Shown: one piece after another, positions 3,396 to 63,563 of the stretch | Layout of the letters: the number at the start of each line of letters is the position of its first letter | Position numbering within the stretch: the stretch's first letter is position 1 | Assembly (NCBI RefSeq): GCF_014207605.1 | Contig: NZ_JACHHI010000003.1 | Coordinates: 124,001 to 188,000 of the forward strand | Length of the DNA: 64,000 nucleotides | Direction: 5' to 3' | DNA from: Negativicoccus succinicivorans | GTDB lineage: Bacteria > Bacillota > Negativicutes > Veillonellales > Negativicoccaceae | Notes under the pieces: model-generated | What the model was told of the DNA's origin: nothing | The model's database searches: none | Seen by the model: only the letters and a program-made list of their open reading frames with translations | Position numbers and translations under genes: made by a program

Positions 3396-3424
3396 AAAAA
3401 AGCACCTCGCGCGAGGTGCTTTTT
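3396..3424. terminator. Bidirectional terminator between convergent genes
   Basis: A perfect 20-bp palindrome (3401-3420, arms AGCACCTCGC) is flanked by an A-run and a T-run. It lies between the convergent genes 2891-3346 and 3439-4335. A second weaker hairpin (TTATCT/AGATAA, about 3379-3394) precedes it. Confidence 0.9.
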
Positions 3425-19647: not shown

Positions 19648-20537
19648 CCCTTGACTCCTTCCTGCGGCGCGTCAGGAACCAAATTCGGCATCTGCTCAAG
19701 CGGCACGGCCGCGGTAGAGGCATTCAAAATTACCAGAACTTCTTCCAATTTGGTGAAATCAACGGCCGGGGTCAAGACAGCGCGTTTTACGACACCCGAA
19801 GGATCCGGCACGATTTCTTTCACCGTACCGATCAAAAGTCCCTTGGGATACAATCCGCCGTAACCCGATGTCACAACCGCATCGCCCACCACGATATCGC
19901 CCTCTTTGACGATATCAATCATTTCCGGATGCGCCACGTCGTTACCGTTGCCGGAGACGAGCGCCGCTACGCGCGACTGCGGGCGCTGCACGATGCCGCC
20001 CACCGCGGTGCGGGGATCTAAAATAAATTGGATCCGCGCCGAATGCGGATACACATCGCTGACAAATCCGACCACGCCTTGCGGTAACATCACCGCCATA
20101 TATTTCGTCAAACCTTCCGCTTGGCCGCGGTCGATTACCGCGCTTTGCGTCCAGCCGCCGTCATCACGAGTAATCACGCGCGCGGCCAGCACCTGGTATT
20201 GCGGATAGGTCGCTTCAAATTGCAACAGACCGCGCAGGCGCTCATTTTCCGCGATCATTTCACGGTGCGCCGTCAATGCGCCGCGCAACGCGTCATTTTC
20301 CGCCCGCAGCTGATGCAACTCCGCATAACCTGTTACCGCTCCGCGCAAGATGGTCGCGCCGGCAAGCACCTCCTGCGCCACACGCGCCGTTCCGTATTCA
20401 AACGGCGTCGCAGCCGCGACCAGCGGTTGCGTGACAAAAGGCACCGCCTCACGGTGCCGCCATGCCCAACCGACCAAACCGATCAAAAGCAAGATGGCAA
20501 CCGCCCAAATCAGCGTGCGTCGTTCCATTCCCCGCAC
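19644..20537 (-). CDS. mreC: Rod shape-determining protein MreC
   Basis: A 297-aa protein with one N-terminal membrane helix, a coiled coil at about residues 70-105 (LHQLRAENDALRGALTAHRE), and the two-barrel periplasmic domain (GVVGFVSDVYPHSARIQFILD, GDAVVTSGYGGLYPKGLLIG). MreC links MreB to PBP2. The start is a GTG at 20537 with GGAGG 8 bases upstream; a later ATG at 20528 lacks proper spacing. The GTG overlaps the TAG of the upstream gene (TAGTG). Confidence 0.88.
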   Translation of the reverse strand: MRGMERRTLIWAVAILLLIGLVGWAWRHREAVPFVTQPLVAAATPFEYGTARVAQEVLAGATILRGAVTGYAELHQLRAENDALRGALTAHREMIAENERLRGLLQFEATYPQYQVLAARVITRDDGGWTQSAVIDRGQAEGLTKYMAVMLPQGVVGFVSDVYPHSARIQFILDPRTAVGGIVQRPQSRVAALVSGNGNDVAHPEMIDIVKEGDIVVGDAVVTSGYGGLYPKGLLIGTVKEIVPDPSGVVKRAVLTPAVDFTKLEEVLVILNASTAAVPLEQMPNLVPDAPQEGVKG

Positions 20538-21565
20538 TATTCATTCCTCCCCACGTTGCCACCGACTAATAAATACGGCCATTCCGCACGCCGATTCAGC
20601 GCCAACATACTGCCTCGCGCCACGGTGCCGAACGGCTCTTTCGCGACCTGCACGGGAATGCCGATCGTTTCCGAAAGCGCCAAATCAAATCCTTTAAGCA
20701 AGGCCGAGCCGCCGGTCAGGCGTACGCCGTTTTCTAAAAGATCCGCCTGCGCCTGCGCGGAAAGTCCGCGCACCAAACGGCGGAAACGTTGCAACCAGAC
20801 ATTTGTCACCTCACGCACGAGCGGCAATAACTCCGTCGAGGTCACGGTAAACTCTGTCAATGTGCCGTCAGCCAACAATCGTCCCGTGCATTCCTGCTGC
20901 GTTTCACCGACGCTCGGCACGCAGACCGCCACTTCACGCACGAGGGTTTGAATCGTAGCGGGCTCCACCATCACTCCGTAGGTTTCGCGCAAGTACGCCC
21001 GCAGCGCCGCGCTCAAAGCACGACCGCCGGCCGGCAAATAGTCGTTAGCGAGATAGCCGCCGCCGGAAAGCGCGGTCAGCGTAAATCCTGCGCCGCAATC
21101 CGCCGCAACGACCGCTTCCGCCCGTAACGGATCCCAACCGGTACCTATCGCCGTCGCCGCACCGCGATCCACCAGCAGCGTTTCCAATACGCCCGCTTTG
21201 CGCGTCGTGTGCAGCCATGCCCGGGCCGCCACCTGCGATGCCAGCGAGGGTACCGCAAGACACACGGTCGGCCGCGTCACGGCGCCGCGTTGCACTTTAT
21301 CCAAAATCGATTGTAACAGTAATTGCGCGGCGGCCTGTTGCGCCACGACGCCGCCCGCGAACGGTCGCACCGCGACAAGACCGCGCGGCTCCGCGCGCAA
21401 GCGAATCGCCGCTTCCGTTCCGACAGCGACGACCTCGCCCTGCGTGGTTACCGCCGCCAGCGACGGCTCGGATATTTCCTGCTGAGCATCCGCCACCACC
21501 ACACGTGTATATAACGAGCCCGGGTCGATCCCGACCAGCAGACTGCGCATTGAAATTCGTTTCAT
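20537..21565 (-). CDS. Divergent MreB-like actin
   Basis: A 342-aa protein in the mreB position of the operon. Its N-terminal half aligns with MreB (EPSLAAV, VAVGTEAA, LVAVRPFAGGVVA), so homology is clear. The nucleotide-site motifs are eroded. Phosphate 1 is DPGSLYT (14-20) instead of DLGTANT, phosphate 2 is DCGAGFT (156-162), and the ERRA and EEPMAAAIG motifs are AARA (113-116) and DRGAATAIG (133-141). The adenosine motif TGGSALL (284-290) is kept. ATP hydrolysis may be weak or lost. The start is ATG at 21565 with GGAG 7 bases upstream; the ATG at 21550 has no site. Confidence 0.75.
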   Translation of the reverse strand: MKRISMRSLLVGIDPGSLYTRVVVADAQQEISEPSLAAVTTQGEVVAVGTEAAIRLRAEPRGLVAVRPFAGGVVAQQAAAQLLLQSILDKVQRGAVTRPTVCLAVPSLASQVAARAWLHTTRKAGVLETLLVDRGAATAIGTGWDPLRAEAVVAADCGAGFTLTALSGGGYLANDYLPAGGRALSAALRAYLRETYGVMVEPATIQTLVREVAVCVPSVGETQQECTGRLLADGTLTEFTVTSTELLPLVREVTNVWLQRFRRLVRGLSAQAQADLLENGVRLTGGSALLKGFDLALSETIGIPVQVAKEPFGTVARGSMLALNRRAEWPYLLVGGNVGRNE

Positions 21566-44486: not shown

Positions 44487-45512
44487 TTATGCCTGCGTTA
44501 AGCGCAGTTGCGCAAAGGTTTCTCCCGCGCCGCCGTACACTTCGCCCGCCACGAGTTCCGTCGCGGCAAAGGCTTCGTGCTTCGGCAGATCCTGCGCCGC
44601 CAGCCACAAATACGGTAACGTCGGTTCGCCCCAATAGGGAATCCCGCTTGCCGTAAGCTCGTCGCGAACGGTTTTCTGGCGCGCGGCATACGCTTCCAAA
44701 ATCGCGCTCCACTCCGTTTGCCCCGCGTCACTCAACCACGCGTGCAATCCCGCGAGCAACAACGGCGACACATCGGGCGCGCCGAGATATTTGCGCACAA
44801 CATCCGCCGCCGGATACGCATGTTGATCCGAGCGGTCGGCCACGAATTCATCCGGCACGACGACCGCCGTTAAACCAGGCAAGCCGAGCGCGGCGAAATC
44901 ATACACGGTCAACACGCATGCCGCGGCTCCGTCGATCGCGTAAAATGACTGCGCCTCACGTAAATACGGCGCAAAACTGGCGTCGGCAATCAGCGTCAGA
45001 CCCGACTGCTCGGCGTAACGCACCCAACGCAACTGATCGCGCGCGGTCAGCGCGACCCCCGTCGCGAGTGACGGCTGCGCGATATACAACAATCCGGGTT
45101 CATGCGCCGGTAAACCGATGCGCCAATCGATTTCGTCAAAACCGCTGATATATTCCACGCCGCGATAGTAACCCGAATCCCAGTCGCCGGTATGACCTTC
45201 CGCCACCTGGCGATCAAAAACGGTCAGCTCGTCCGGCTCGGTGACGGCGAAAATATGACCCGCCTCCCAAAGCGTCGCCAATTCCTCTTTACGAATGCCG
45301 AAGCGAATCGCGGCGGGCGTAACGGCTGCGCCGTGCCGTTGTAAATACGCGGCAAAGGCTTCCTGCAGCGCGGTAAGCGAGGGCGCCGGCGCGCCTTGGA
45401 TCGTTTGCGAGAGCGCGCCCGTTACCGTTTTTGTTGTCGGCAGTCGCCAAACGGGCGGCCTGTCATAACCGCCTTGCGCGCGTAATCGCCATATCGTTTT
45501 CTTTAACTGCAC
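44487..45512 (-). CDS. DapL-like aminotransferase without catalytic lysine (probable pseudoenzyme)
   Basis: A 341-aa fold-type I aminotransferase-like protein whose central and C-terminal parts align with LL-diaminopimelate aminotransferase: IFAVTEPDELTVFDRQVAEG, LLYIAQPSLATGVALTARDQ, LIADASFAPYL, SFYAIDGA, and PYLWLAAQ. Active-site residues differ. The NNPTG loop is SLATG, the conserved Tyr of the DAAY motif is Phe180, and the SFSK lysine is replaced (VYDFAALG, 203-210). Asp177 and the C-terminal Arg (QLRLTQ) remain. It is also about 70 residues shorter than DapL. The start is GTG at 45512 after GGGGTGAG. Confidence 0.75.
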   Translation of the reverse strand: MQLKKTIWRLRAQGGYDRPPVWRLPTTKTVTGALSQTIQGAPAPSLTALQEAFAAYLQRHGAAVTPAAIRFGIRKEELATLWEAGHIFAVTEPDELTVFDRQVAEGHTGDWDSGYYRGVEYISGFDEIDWRIGLPAHEPGLLYIAQPSLATGVALTARDQLRWVRYAEQSGLTLIADASFAPYLREAQSFYAIDGAAACVLTVYDFAALGLPGLTAVVVPDEFVADRSDQHAYPAADVVRKYLGAPDVSPLLLAGLHAWLSDAGQTEWSAILEAYAARQKTVRDELTASGIPYWGEPTLPYLWLAAQDLPKHEAFAATELVAGEVYGGAGETFAQLRLTQA

Positions 45513-45589
45513 CCGCTCACCCCGTCATCCCATCCCGCGCCGCAAAGGCACCCGTCAAAATAGTTTCGCACTGTAATGATACTTTATCT

Positions 45590-45595
45590 ATTTTA
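45590..45595 (-). promoter_or_regulatory. Possible promoter of DapL-like/ychF unit
   Basis: TAAAAT preceded by TGG on the minus strand in the divergent gap with the AEC transporter gene. The -35 is poor. Confidence 0.4.
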
Positions 45596-45676
45596 CCATA
45601 TGCGCTGACCTGTCGTGCGAACGTCGCCCACATTTTCTTATTTTGTGATATTCTAACAATAATAAGGGAGTCAACG

Positions 45677-46648
45677 ATGGAAATTATTCATATCTTAGTG
45701 TACAACATGTTGCCGCTGATTGGGATCGCCGCGCTTGGCTATTGGCTGGACAGCATGTTTCCGATTGATGTCAAATCATTAACCAAATTAACGTTTTATA
45801 TTATCCTGCCTTCGTTTATTTTCCGCAGTATTTTCCTGATGCCGTTCGATACCGGCATGATGGTTCTGTTTGCGGCTGGCGCGTTGCTTTTTCTGCTCCA
45901 CAGTCTGTTCGCCACCGGCATTGCTAAGCTGCGCGGCTATGACAGCGGCATGCGGGAGGCGTTTCGCGTCGGCACGATGTTCAGCAACTGCGGTAACGTA
46001 GGCGTCTCGATGATCACGTTGATCTATTCCAATCCGCCGTTTATCAAGGGTCCGGAAGCCCCGTATCATGATGCCGCGATGGCGGCCATCACCGTGCTTT
46101 TAATTTTGATGAACGTTTCCGTCAACACCATCGGCCTGTACTTGGCCGGCAAGGGTCGCATGACGGCGCGCGACGCGATGTTGATGGTACTGCATATGCC
46201 TACATTGTACGTCATTTTCGGCGTCGTGTTTTGCAAATGGCTGGCGCTTCCGGTAGACACTTGGTTCGTTTGGCCGATGCTTTCCATGGCGGCGAAATCA
46301 TTGCCGTTCATCGCGATGGTGACGCTGGGCATTCAGCTGCACCGCACGACATTGACCTGGTTCAACCCCGATGTGTGGCTCGCGATTTTTACCCGCCTGA
46401 TCCTCGGTCCGCTCTTTGCGCTCGCGATTATTTACGCGTACGGTCGTTTCGATCCGCTGACCTCGCAGGTGTTTTTGATTTTCTCCGCCGTGCCGAGCGC
46501 CGTCAACAGCGTCATGTTCGCCGTCGACTTCGACAACTATCCCGGCTATGCCACGCAAGTCGTCATGCTCGGGTTCGTCATGAGTTGTTTCACGCTGACG
46601 ACAGTGATTTATCTGGCGCGCTTTCTCTTTCCCATACCGATGTGGTAA
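45677..46648 (+). CDS. AEC family transporter
   Basis: A 323-aa membrane protein with about ten helices in two halves, of the auxin efflux carrier family (PF03547-like): LPLIGIAALGYWLDS, KLTFYIILPSFIFRSI, and in the second half FIAMVTLGIQL and RLILGPLFALAI. Bacterial members export or import organic acids such as malate; the substrate here is unknown. The frame is open far upstream, but GGGAG at 45666-45670 fixes the ATG at 45677. It is one of few plus-strand genes. Confidence 0.83.
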   Translation: MEIIHILVYNMLPLIGIAALGYWLDSMFPIDVKSLTKLTFYIILPSFIFRSIFLMPFDTGMMVLFAAGALLFLLHSLFATGIAKLRGYDSGMREAFRVGTMFSNCGNVGVSMITLIYSNPPFIKGPEAPYHDAAMAAITVLLILMNVSVNTIGLYLAGKGRMTARDAMLMVLHMPTLYVIFGVVFCKWLALPVDTWFVWPMLSMAAKSLPFIAMVTLGIQLHRTTLTWFNPDVWLAIFTRLILGPLFALAIIYAYGRFDPLTSQVFLIFSAVPSAVNSVMFAVDFDNYPGYATQVVMLGFVMSCFTLTTVIYLARFLFPIPMW

Positions 46649-50073: not shown

Positions 50074-51246
50074 TTACGGTTCTACCTTCGACAGGAACTT
50101 CAGAGCGCCGTCTTTGTAGGTCATAATATACGCGCCTTTGATCGTGTCATGGCGTTCGTCAATGTGCATCTTACCGGAAACCCCTTCAAAGTTTTCCGTT
50201 TTGGCCATCGCATCTTTAATTTTTTCCGGTTCTACCGAATTTGCGCGAGTAATCGCATCCGCGATCATGTACATCGCATCGTAAGCGAGCGCCGCGTACG
50301 CATCCGGTTTCACACCGTAGGCTTTTTCATAGGCCGCCACAAAATCCATCGCTTTTTTATTGTTTTCATCAACGGCATAGTGGTTACTGAAATACGTATT
50401 GTTCAAGTTTTGCGCGCCGGCGATTTCCGCCAACTTCGCGCTGTCCCAACCGTCCGAGCCCAAAATCGGTTTCGTGTAACCCATTTCGCGCGCCTGTTTG
50501 ATGATCAGGCCGACTTCCTGGTAGTACGCCGGTACAAAAATCGCATCCGGATCGCTGGCAATAATTTTCGTCAGCGTCGCTTTAAAATCGGTATCTTTCT
50601 GCAGGAAACCTTCGGTACCGGTAACCGTGCCGCCGGCGGCCGTGAATGCTTCCTCGAAGAATTTAGCCAACCCCTTGGAGTAATCGCTTGAGTTATCGAC
50701 AAGAATCGCTACCTTTTGCGCATTCAACTGTTTCAACGCAAAGCTCGTCATGACTTTGCCCTGGAACGAGTCGACAAAGGTGGAACGGAACATGAAATCG
50801 CGTACTTTATTCGCTTTATCATCCCAGGTCACGCGCGGATTCGAACCCGTCGGGCTGATCCCGAGAACTTTGGCGGAGGAATTGATCGCGGACGCCGCAA
50901 TCGCGTTCGAGCTGGTATCCGGAGCAATCGTGGCAATCGCACCGTCATCAATCAATTTTTGCATTTGCGTCGTGGCTTCGGCCGCTTCCGAGCGGTTGTC
51001 ACCGACTTGCAGGCTGACCTGCTTACCCATGAGGCCACCCTTTTTGTTGATTTCATCCACCGCCAGTTTAATCGCGTTCGCGGAGCTTTGACCGAAGGAA
51101 GCCTGGTTACCGGTCATTTCCAAGTTCGCGCCGATTTTGATCGTATCGGCCGCTGCTTTTTTGTCACCGCCGCCGCACCCGGCAATCAATCCGATTGTGG
51201 CCATTGCCATGACCGCCGTCGCTACTTTCTTTTGCCATTGTTTCAT
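50074..51246 (-). CDS. livK: Branched-chain amino acid binding lipoprotein LivK
   Basis: A 390-aa periplasmic-type binding protein with a lipobox (LIAGC, Cys near residue 24) and type I fold: IKIGANLEMTGNQASFG, GDNRSEAAEATTQMQKLI, TIAPDTSSNAIAA, PTGSNPRVTW, PAYYQEVGLIIKQAREM and GSDGWDSAKLAEIAG. It delivers Leu/Ile/Val or related amino acids to LivHM. It lies 30 bases after the damaged second copy. Confidence 0.93.
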   Translation of the reverse strand: MKQWQKKVATAVMAMATIGLIAGCGGGDKKAAADTIKIGANLEMTGNQASFGQSSANAIKLAVDEINKKGGLMGKQVSLQVGDNRSEAAEATTQMQKLIDDGAIATIAPDTSSNAIAASAINSSAKVLGISPTGSNPRVTWDDKANKVRDFMFRSTFVDSFQGKVMTSFALKQLNAQKVAILVDNSSDYSKGLAKFFEEAFTAAGGTVTGTEGFLQKDTDFKATLTKIIASDPDAIFVPAYYQEVGLIIKQAREMGYTKPILGSDGWDSAKLAEIAGAQNLNNTYFSNHYAVDENNKKAMDFVAAYEKAYGVKPDAYAALAYDAMYMIADAITRANSVEPEKIKDAMAKTENFEGVSGKMHIDERHDTIKGAYIMTYKDGALKFLSKVEP

Positions 51247-51276: not shown

Positions 51277-52451
51277 CTATTGACTCAACTGAATTCGCTT
51301 CAGGAAACGTCGTTCGCCGTCCACCAACTGAATGACCACACCGCTCGAAACGGTATTGTGATCGGCATCGATGGAAATTTTACCGCTGATCGCTTTGAAA
51401 TCCTGCATCTGCGTCAGTTCCTGTTGAATCTTATGCGGATCGGTCGACTGCGCCTGCCGGATGGCTTCAAGCAAGAGTCGTGTCGCATCGTACCCGAGCA
51501 CCGCGTAGGAATCCGGTGTTGCAACAGTTCATAACGTGTGATGAACTGTTGCAACACCGGATCCGTATCATTTGGCGAGTAATGGTTGGTGTAGTAGGTA
51601 TTGTTCAGATTTTTAGCGCCCGCAATTTCCACGAGTTTATCCGAATCCCAACCGTCACCGCCGACGATCGGCACATTCCAGCCGATCTCACGCGCCTGCC
51701 GAACAATCATGCCCACTTCCTGGTAGTAGCCCGGCACAAACAAAACGTCCGGGTGTTGCGCTTTCAACTTTGTCAACGTGACTTTGAAATCCACGTCTTT
51801 TTGCAGGTACGCTTCTTTGGCGATGACCGTACCGCCCGCAGCCGTAAAGCTCTTGGTAAAGAAATCCGCCAAGCCGATCGCATATTCACTCGCGTTATCG
51901 ACCAGAATTGCCGCTTTGCGTGCTCCCAAGTCGCCGTAAGCGAACTCGGCGGCGATGTGCCCCTGGTAAGAATCAATGAAAGTCGCGCGGAACACATACT
52001 CTCGCACCTTGCCCGTCGCCGGATCGATCGTAACCGCCGGATGCGTCGCCTTCGGACTGATCAACGGAATTTTATTCTCCGCCACCATCGGCGCCACCGC
52101 AATCACGTTCGAGCTTGTATCCGGACCGATGATGCCGACCACGCCCGCATCCAACAGCTTAAACATCGCATCACTCGAGCCGGCGACATCACTGCGGTTA
52201 TCAAGCGCGATCAGCTGAATTTGCTTGCCGAGAATTCCGTCCGCACTGTTCACTTCATCGATCGCCATTTGCATGGCATTGACCGTCGATGTGCCGAAGC
52301 TGGCGTTCGAACCGGTCATTTCCAAATTACTGCCGATCGTCACTAAATGATCATTCTTCGGACTTCGATTCGGCTGACAGCCGGTCATACCGACCAACGC
52401 AATCGTACCGACGAGCGCGCTGATAATCAGCGCCCGCCACTTTGTTTGCAT
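51277..52451 (-). pseudogene. Second livK-type binding lipoprotein gene, frameshifted
   Basis: Residues from the ATG at 52451 (GGAGG 6 bases upstream; lipobox VGMTGC) follow LivK closely up to DPVLQQFITRYE. There the frame runs into unrelated sequence and stops at 51414. The true C-terminal part (PDSYAVLGYDATRLLLEAI ... FLKRIQLSQ) continues in another frame to 51277. The break coincides with a perfect 22-bp inverted repeat (51511-51562). Against LivK, 14 bases stand where 21 are expected. Either a real inactivating mutation or an assembly artefact. It is first in the liv operon. Confidence 0.8.
51511..51562. repeat. Perfect inverted repeat, 22-bp arms, at the livK2 break
   Basis: Arm 51511-51532 (begins ATCCGGTGTTGC) is the exact reverse complement of 51541-51562; the 8-base spacer is AACGTGTG. 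The upstream arm in the gene encodes DPVLQQFI as expected; the downstream arm replaces native sequence. Confidence 0.95.
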
Positions 52452-54567: not shown

Positions 54568-55443
54568 TTATTTCAATAAGGTTAAAAGCCGCTCCAGCTC
54601 ATCCCAGTTCGCATACGGAATGCGAATTTCACCATGCGTCTTGCTGCCGCTGCCCTGCGCGGTAATATCTACTTTCGTCCCGAGCAATAAGGTCAGCTCT
54701 TCACTTTCCGCATCGAGATAAGCCTCGACGTTCGCATCTGCTTTTTTGGTTTTTTTCTGTTTCTGGGATTTCGCGGCCGGCGTTTTGGCTTTCGCAAGTA
54801 ACGCTTCTACCTGGCGCGCGCTTAAACCTTCCGCGGCAATTTTTTGCGCCCAGCGCACCTGCGCATCCGGATCCTCTACCACCAATAAAGGCCGCACTTG
54901 TCCGACAGTGAGTTCGCGACGCGCCAACAGCTCGCGTACAAAATCCGGCAATTGGAGAAGCCGCATCATATTGGTAATATACGGACGGCTGCGGCCGACT
55001 TTAGTCGCAATCTGCGCCTGCGTCAGAGAAAATTCATCGCGCAGACGATAGTATGCCGCCGCTTCTTCAATCGGATTTAAATCTTCACGTTGCAAATTTT
55101 CGATTAACGCGACCGCGGCCAGCGCTGTATCGTCGTAATCACGAATGATTGCCGGCACGGTGCGAAGTTTGGCAATTTTAGCGGCGCGCAAACGCCGTTC
55201 TCCCGCGACCAGTTGGTAGCCGTCCTCGGCCTTCATCACAATGAGCGGCTGAATAATGCCGTACTCTTTAATCGACGCGGCCAAGTCGTTCAGTTCATTT
55301 TCGGCAAATTTCTGACGGGGTTGCTGCGGATTCGGCACAATCTCCGTGAGCGAAATTTCCTGCACCGCGTTTTGCGCCACCGACTCGCTACCAGGAAGCA
55401 ACGAATCCAGGCCACGGCCCAGCTTCATGCCTTTTTTAGCCAC
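54568..55443 (-). CDS. parB: Chromosome partitioning protein ParB (Spo0J-like)
   Basis: A 291-aa CTP-dependent DNA clamp. N-terminal LGRGLDSLLPG, box I VAGERRLRAAKIAKL (CTP site), box II ENLQREDLNPIEEAAAY, and the helix-turn-helix TQAQIATKVGRSRPYITNMM that reads parS. A C-terminal dimer domain ends WDELERLLTLLK. The start is GTG at 55443 with GGAGG 9 bases upstream, overlapping parA by 8 bases. Three parS sites lie within 10 kb. Confidence 0.95.
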   Translation of the reverse strand: MAKKGMKLGRGLDSLLPGSESVAQNAVQEISLTEIVPNPQQPRQKFAENELNDLAASIKEYGIIQPLIVMKAEDGYQLVAGERRLRAAKIAKLRTVPAIIRDYDDTALAAVALIENLQREDLNPIEEAAAYYRLRDEFSLTQAQIATKVGRSRPYITNMMRLLQLPDFVRELLARRELTVGQVRPLLVVEDPDAQVRWAQKIAAEGLSARQVEALLAKAKTPAAKSQKQKKTKKADANVEAYLDAESEELTLLLGTKVDITAQGSGSKTHGEIRIPYANWDELERLLTLLK

Positions 55444-56197
55444 GCCGCAACACCTCCTGCGCCAATTCGCGATACACTTCCGCACCTTTGGATTTGCCGT
55501 CATAAAGAATGATCGGCTCGCCGTAGCTCGGCGCTTCACTCAATCGCACATTGCGCGGAATCAGCGTGCGGTAGACTTTTTCGCCGAAATGTTTTTTGAC
55601 TTCATCGGCCACCTGTAAAGACAAATTGGTGCGACCGTCAAACATCGTCAATACAACGCCTTCCAAATGCAAGCTCGGATTCCAGTTGCCCGAAACCGAA
55701 CGGATCGTCTGCAAAAGCTGCGCTACCCCTTCCAATGCGTAGTATTCGCACTGAATGGGCACCAGTACCGATCCCGCCGCGACTAACGCATTCACCGTCA
55801 AAAGTCCCAGCGAAGGCGGGCAGTCGATCAAGATATAATCGAATTTCTTTTTTAATTTACCTAAGGCGTCACGCAATTTTGTTTCACGTGAAACCATGTT
55901 GACCAATTCGACTTCCGCGCCGGCCAATGCGATCGTCGCGGGCAAAACGGACAATCCCTCCACGGCGGTCTTCACGCATGCTTTTTTGGCGGCCGCGCCT
56001 TCGATCAGCACTTCATACCCGGAACTTTCGATTCGGTCTTTGTCGATCCCCAGGCCGCTGGTCGCATTTCCCTGCGCGTCCATATCCACTAACAGTACGG
56101 CTTGACCGGCTTCCGCCAGGCAGGCCGCCAGGTTTACGGCGGTCGTCGTTTTGCCCACGCCGCCTTTCTGATTCATGATGGCAATAATTTTGCCCAC
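55436..56197 (-). CDS. parA: Chromosome partitioning ATPase ParA (Soj-like)
   Basis: A 253-aa deviant-Walker ATPase: NQKGGVGKTTTAVNLAA (K11, K16), LLVDMDAQGNATSGLG, DYILIDCPPSLGLLTVNALV. The start is GTG at 56197 with GGAGG spaced 7 bases. It works with ParB to segregate the origin region. A parS site lies within the gene at 55880-55895. Confidence 0.95.
   Translation of the reverse strand: MGKIIAIMNQKGGVGKTTTAVNLAACLAEAGQAVLLVDMDAQGNATSGLGIDKDRIESSGYEVLIEGAAAKKACVKTAVEGLSVLPATIALAGAEVELVNMVSRETKLRDALGKLKKKFDYILIDCPPSLGLLTVNALVAAGSVLVPIQCEYYALEGVAQLLQTIRSVSGNWNPSLHLEGVVLTMFDGRTNLSLQVADEVKKHFGEKVYRTLIPRNVRLSEAPSYGEPIILYDGKSKGAEVYRELAQEVLRRG
55880..55895. other. parS site 3 (inside parA)
   Basis: TGTTTCACGTGAAACC matches the parS consensus at 15 of 16 positions. 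Placement inside parA/soj is typical; Bacillus has parS within spo0J. Confidence 0.88.
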
Positions 56198-63499: not shown

Positions 63500-63518
63500 G
63501 ACAACCGTCCCTTATGTA

Positions 63519-63552
63519 TACAAAGAACTTGGCCGAGGCCAAGTTCTTTGTA
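63519..63552 (-). other. Long perfect hairpin between rpmH and rnpA
   Basis: A 16-bp perfect stem with arms TACAAAGAACTTGGCC and its complement separated by GA lies in the 64-base gap. No T-run follows on the minus strand, so it is more likely a processing or stabilising element that separates rpmH and rnpA messages than a simple terminator. Confidence 0.7.
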
Positions 63553-63563
63553 TCGCCTCTCGC

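Follow-up and report, generated by a model that had tools for sequence, protein, structure and literature searches.

In all likelihood, the livK2 gene of Negativicoccus succinicivorans, which encodes a substrate-binding protein of the branched-chain-amino-acid ABC transporter type, is a very young pseudogene produced by one quasipalindrome-associated template-switch mutation. It lies at 51277-52451 on the minus strand of the window, the 64-kb stretch analysed here from a 1.4-Mb draft genome in 10 contigs. Relative to the sister species Negativicoccus massiliensis, which served as reference (94.2% identity over 63.9 kb), the break is a single replacement of 16 native bases by 9, a net change of -7. 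The opposite arm of an inverted repeat, reverse-complemented, gives all nine of the new bases exactly, with no other disturbance.

The broken gene and its operon

The gene comes first in an apparent liv-type operon, also on the minus strand, with the order livK2, livK1 (50074-51246), two permease genes and one ATPase gene; the genes after livK1 were named livH, livM and livG by resemblance. A promoter-like site is predicted upstream of livK2 at 52536-52508 from a match to the consensus only. Directly downstream, livK1 is an intact paralogue of 390 aa that is 51% identical to livK2. The livK2 product contains a Peripla_BP_6 domain (PF13458, E = 1.3e-43), and its top NCBIfam match, PRK15404.1, reaches 117 bits over a 294-aa part, far short of the cut-off of 477. 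The place of livK2 in the gene order, together with livK1 and the permease and ATPase genes of an ABC transporter, would suit a branched-chain amino acid binding protein.

The original prediction held that the gene follows LivK as far as FITRYE and then shifts frame, and that the C-terminus is intact in another frame. Both parts agree with the reading frames. The shifted frame has a short tail and its predicted product ends at 345 aa, compared with 392 aa for LivK2 of N. massiliensis. The C-terminal remainder (51277-51501, minus strand) is open in the native frame, has a dN/dS as low as that of the rest of the gene and resembles the Peripla_BP_6 C-terminus in a match (E = 2.6e-7) that falls just short of the family cut-off.

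When non-overlapping open reading frames of at least 150 aa were compared between the window and the sister, livK2 was the sole clearly broken gene among about 50. The other mismatching frames either lie antisense to intact genes or differ at the N-terminal end, and as far as checked they are not frameshifted genes. One example (+20121-20951) is antisense to intact genes and has no Pfam match. Another (+45395-46645), a Mem_trans (PF03547) transporter frame, differs at its N-terminal end, where it is open for about 94 codons more than in N. massiliensis; this may be a start-site difference only.

Ancestral and derived states

At the syntenic place N. massiliensis has an intact LivK2 of 392 aa, and an intact LivK2 is also found in a third genome of the family. 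This third genome and a more distant one both keep the frame of the sister at the break, and the outgroup peptide there (ERR-G-KPDSYAVLGYDA) is similar to that of the sister, so that the state in the window is derived. An alignment to orthologues had been proposed as a check with the original prediction; in it, the frame of the relatives is intact, and the repeat that is perfect in the window is imperfect in N. massiliensis. The coding-strand sequence is ATCCGGT-GCTGCAACA-GTTCAT-CACACGTT-ATGAAC-GCCGCTTCGGATACAA-ACCGGAT in the sister and ATCCGGT-GTTGCAACA-GTTCAT-CACACGTT-ATGAAC-TGTTGCAAC-ACCGGAT in the window.

The result in the window is a perfect inverted repeat at 51511-51562, with 22-nt arms (51511-51532 and 51541-51562), an 8-nt spacer and pairing at 22 of 22 positions. 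It coincides with the break, exactly as predicted. The source arm (51541-51562, minus strand) is native and encodes the expected DPVLQQFI; it equals the sister sequence except for one synonymous change in a Leu codon at 51554, from CTG in the relatives to TTG in the window. Because the copied arm bears the complement of this derived base, it was copied from the DNA of this lineage itself, and the change at 51554 preceded or accompanied the switch. Within the copied arm, the nine newly templated bases that stand in place of 16 native ones occupy 51518-51526 (minus strand). They are bounded by two minus-strand stretches already present and complementary in the sister: an inner one of 6 nt (51527-51532), the switch-out point, at which ATGAAC pairs with GTTCAT, and an outer one of 7 nt (51511-51517), the switch-back point, at which ACCGGAT pairs with ATCCGGT. 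In the 64-kb sister region, just 16 start positions on the same strand show a comparable arrangement of seeds. The reverse-complement copy and the net loss of 7 had thus been described correctly; the sizes had not, as 9 bases replace 16 rather than 14 replacing about 21.

An exceptional palindrome

No other perfect inverted repeat with a short spacer in the window has arms as long as those in livK2, and in ten 64-kb sequences generated by a first-order Markov model the longest arms measured 11-15. Folded as single-stranded DNA, the region has an energy of -27.1 kcal/mol, compared with -9.9 (sd 2.35) for shuffled versions (z = -7.3), none of which was as stable. The other perfect short-spaced repeats listed in the window are mostly terminator-like hairpins flanked by A/T. 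A second long perfect hairpin lies at 63518-63553 (17-nt arms, 2-nt spacer); its counterpart in N. massiliensis is two pairs shorter, with 15-nt arms. At 3397-3424, a terminator-like hairpin has 14-nt arms in the window and 22-nt arms at the corresponding site of N. massiliensis, possibly another case of arm lengthening.

A stable hairpin upstream of livK1, in an apparent single operon, is what might be expected of a functional element such as a regulatory hairpin, a terminator, a programmed frameshift or an invertible switch. We give this explanation next to no weight, given that the palindrome is absent from N. massiliensis and from the outgroups aligned at the locus, that its arms are found nowhere else in the genome and that inversion of the 8-nt spacer cannot restore the frame. 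A role as terminator is not supported, as no terminator-like site was called there. It is also highly improbable that the perfect palindrome acts as a reversible switch, with further template switching or hairpin deletion toggling livK2 in the population (phase variation by quasipalindrome).

A probable single template switch

The original prediction interpreted the break as a template switch (a templated inversion), and comparison of the sequences supports this interpretation. Before the change, the allele was an imperfect inverted repeat in which each switch point already had a complementary seed, and copying of the opposite arm accounts for every changed base. We suggest that, as the coding (minus) strand was being synthesized, its 3' end, ...ATGAAC, would have folded onto the complementary GTTCAT 8 nt back. 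The folded end would then have copied 9 bases of the newly made strand, reaching sequence complementary to ATCCGGT, and the strand would have gone back to the true template by annealing at the native ACCGGAT, with 16 native bases skipped. The resulting change of -7 nt puts the gene out of frame and truncates the binding protein in its C-terminal part.

The sequences before and after, the polarity of the copy, the seeds, the templated bases and the frameshift can all be read directly in the alignment. The geometry leads us to infer fold-back of the nascent strand during replication: the copy follows its source arm, which is 5' of it on the minus strand, and this fits a nascent coding strand that folds back on itself. 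Because the GC skew of the plus strand is negative across the entire window, the leading strand is probably the minus strand.

Two points weigh against a template switch. The hairpin seeds are short, and the new core taken alone might be a direct copy, given that the 10-mer TGTTGCAACA and its reverse complement are identical. Self-complementarity means that this 10-mer is present as a direct repeat too, and forward slippage or recombination could have copied the core in direct orientation from upstream. We consider such direct copying very improbable. The direct register leaves the bases that flank the 10-mer unmatched on both sides, whereas in the inverted register 6 + 7 nt agree with native sequence and every one of the 22 positions pairs.

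Among the differences between the window and its syntenic counterpart in the sister, the two regions that the count covered, the template switch also stands alone. Their pairwise 64-kb alignment holds 186 clusters with at least four differences and 805 with at least two, and a cluster was taken as explained if copying from a reverse complement at most 100 bases away accounted for it. The livK2 break was the only explained cluster among the 186. Lowering the threshold to the 805 clusters of this alignment added no reverse-complement case, and the control modes of copying (direct, reversed and complemented) gave no cases in the window.

Age of the mutation and its probable effect

Compared with the sister, livK2 has a dN/dS of 0.038 (0.036 before the break and 0.046 after it), as low as the values of its neighbours (livK1 0.028, livM 0.035, livG 0.046; neighbour range 0.016-0.133), and no trace of relaxed selection on the gene was seen in this comparison. 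Thus, the mutation is recent, or else it is an artefact. The upper end of the range, and the highest value among the genes compared, belongs to a ParB/Noc-like gene at 54571-55539.

The second case, in which a fold-back chimera in sequencing or a local misassembly conceals a livK2 that is truly intact, had been offered as an alternative in the original prediction. The genome is a 10-contig draft, and an isolated error would likewise give one clearly broken gene among the roughly 50 frames. Fold-back artefacts and chimeras normally run on in inverted orientation, without a precise return to the native strand. Here, by contrast, the sequence rejoins the native strand at a match of 7 nt after a 9-base replacement, and the deletion is the one that a template switch would leave. 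A library error would in addition have to be present in most of the reads across this point, and ordinary reads are long enough to cover a palindrome of 52 nt. The exact return to the native strand makes an artefact unlikely, and less likely than a template switch.

If the template switch is accepted, its effect on the protein can be judged from the family: loss of the C-terminal part of Peripla_BP_6 very probably abolishes the function of livK2. The intact LivK1 presumably keeps the transporter supplied, and the presence of this paralogue is likely the reason that the loss of livK2 is tolerated.

Comparison with known systems

The mechanism is well known and ordinary, having been established in E. 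coli (PMC7202029, PMC6357072), and livK2 is a new instance of it that adds no new principle. A literature search for frameshift pseudogenes formed by template switching in bacteria returned no direct precedent, which is not evidence of absence. The value of livK2 is as an unusually clean natural example of a bacterial gene broken in one step by a template switch, in which the ancestral state, the seeds and the product are all readable. Such breaks are easily filed as unexplained frameshifts.

The quasipalindromes of E. coli, namely the thyA hotspot and the lacZ QP reporters (PMC7202029, PMC6357072), are alike in that one arm is copied onto the other, which makes an imperfect repeat more perfect (PMC7202029), with a net deletion or insertion. 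Induced events there are commoner on the leading strand, which is the more mutable (PMC6357072). In contrast to these systems, the livK2 case is a natural event in a gene of the Negativicutes that was not observed as it happened, and its replacement (16 nt by 9) exceeds the change in the lacZ reporters, which is 4 bp.

Template switches also rewrite genes in yeast. The multinucleotide template-switch mutations of Saccharomyces cerevisiae (PMC8604942) resemble the livK2 break in that arm homogenisation is seen between close relatives and starts from short seeds (4-5 bp), with arms that grow to 11-16 bp. The yeast events mostly result in amino-acid replacements, whereas livK2 was frameshifted and broken.
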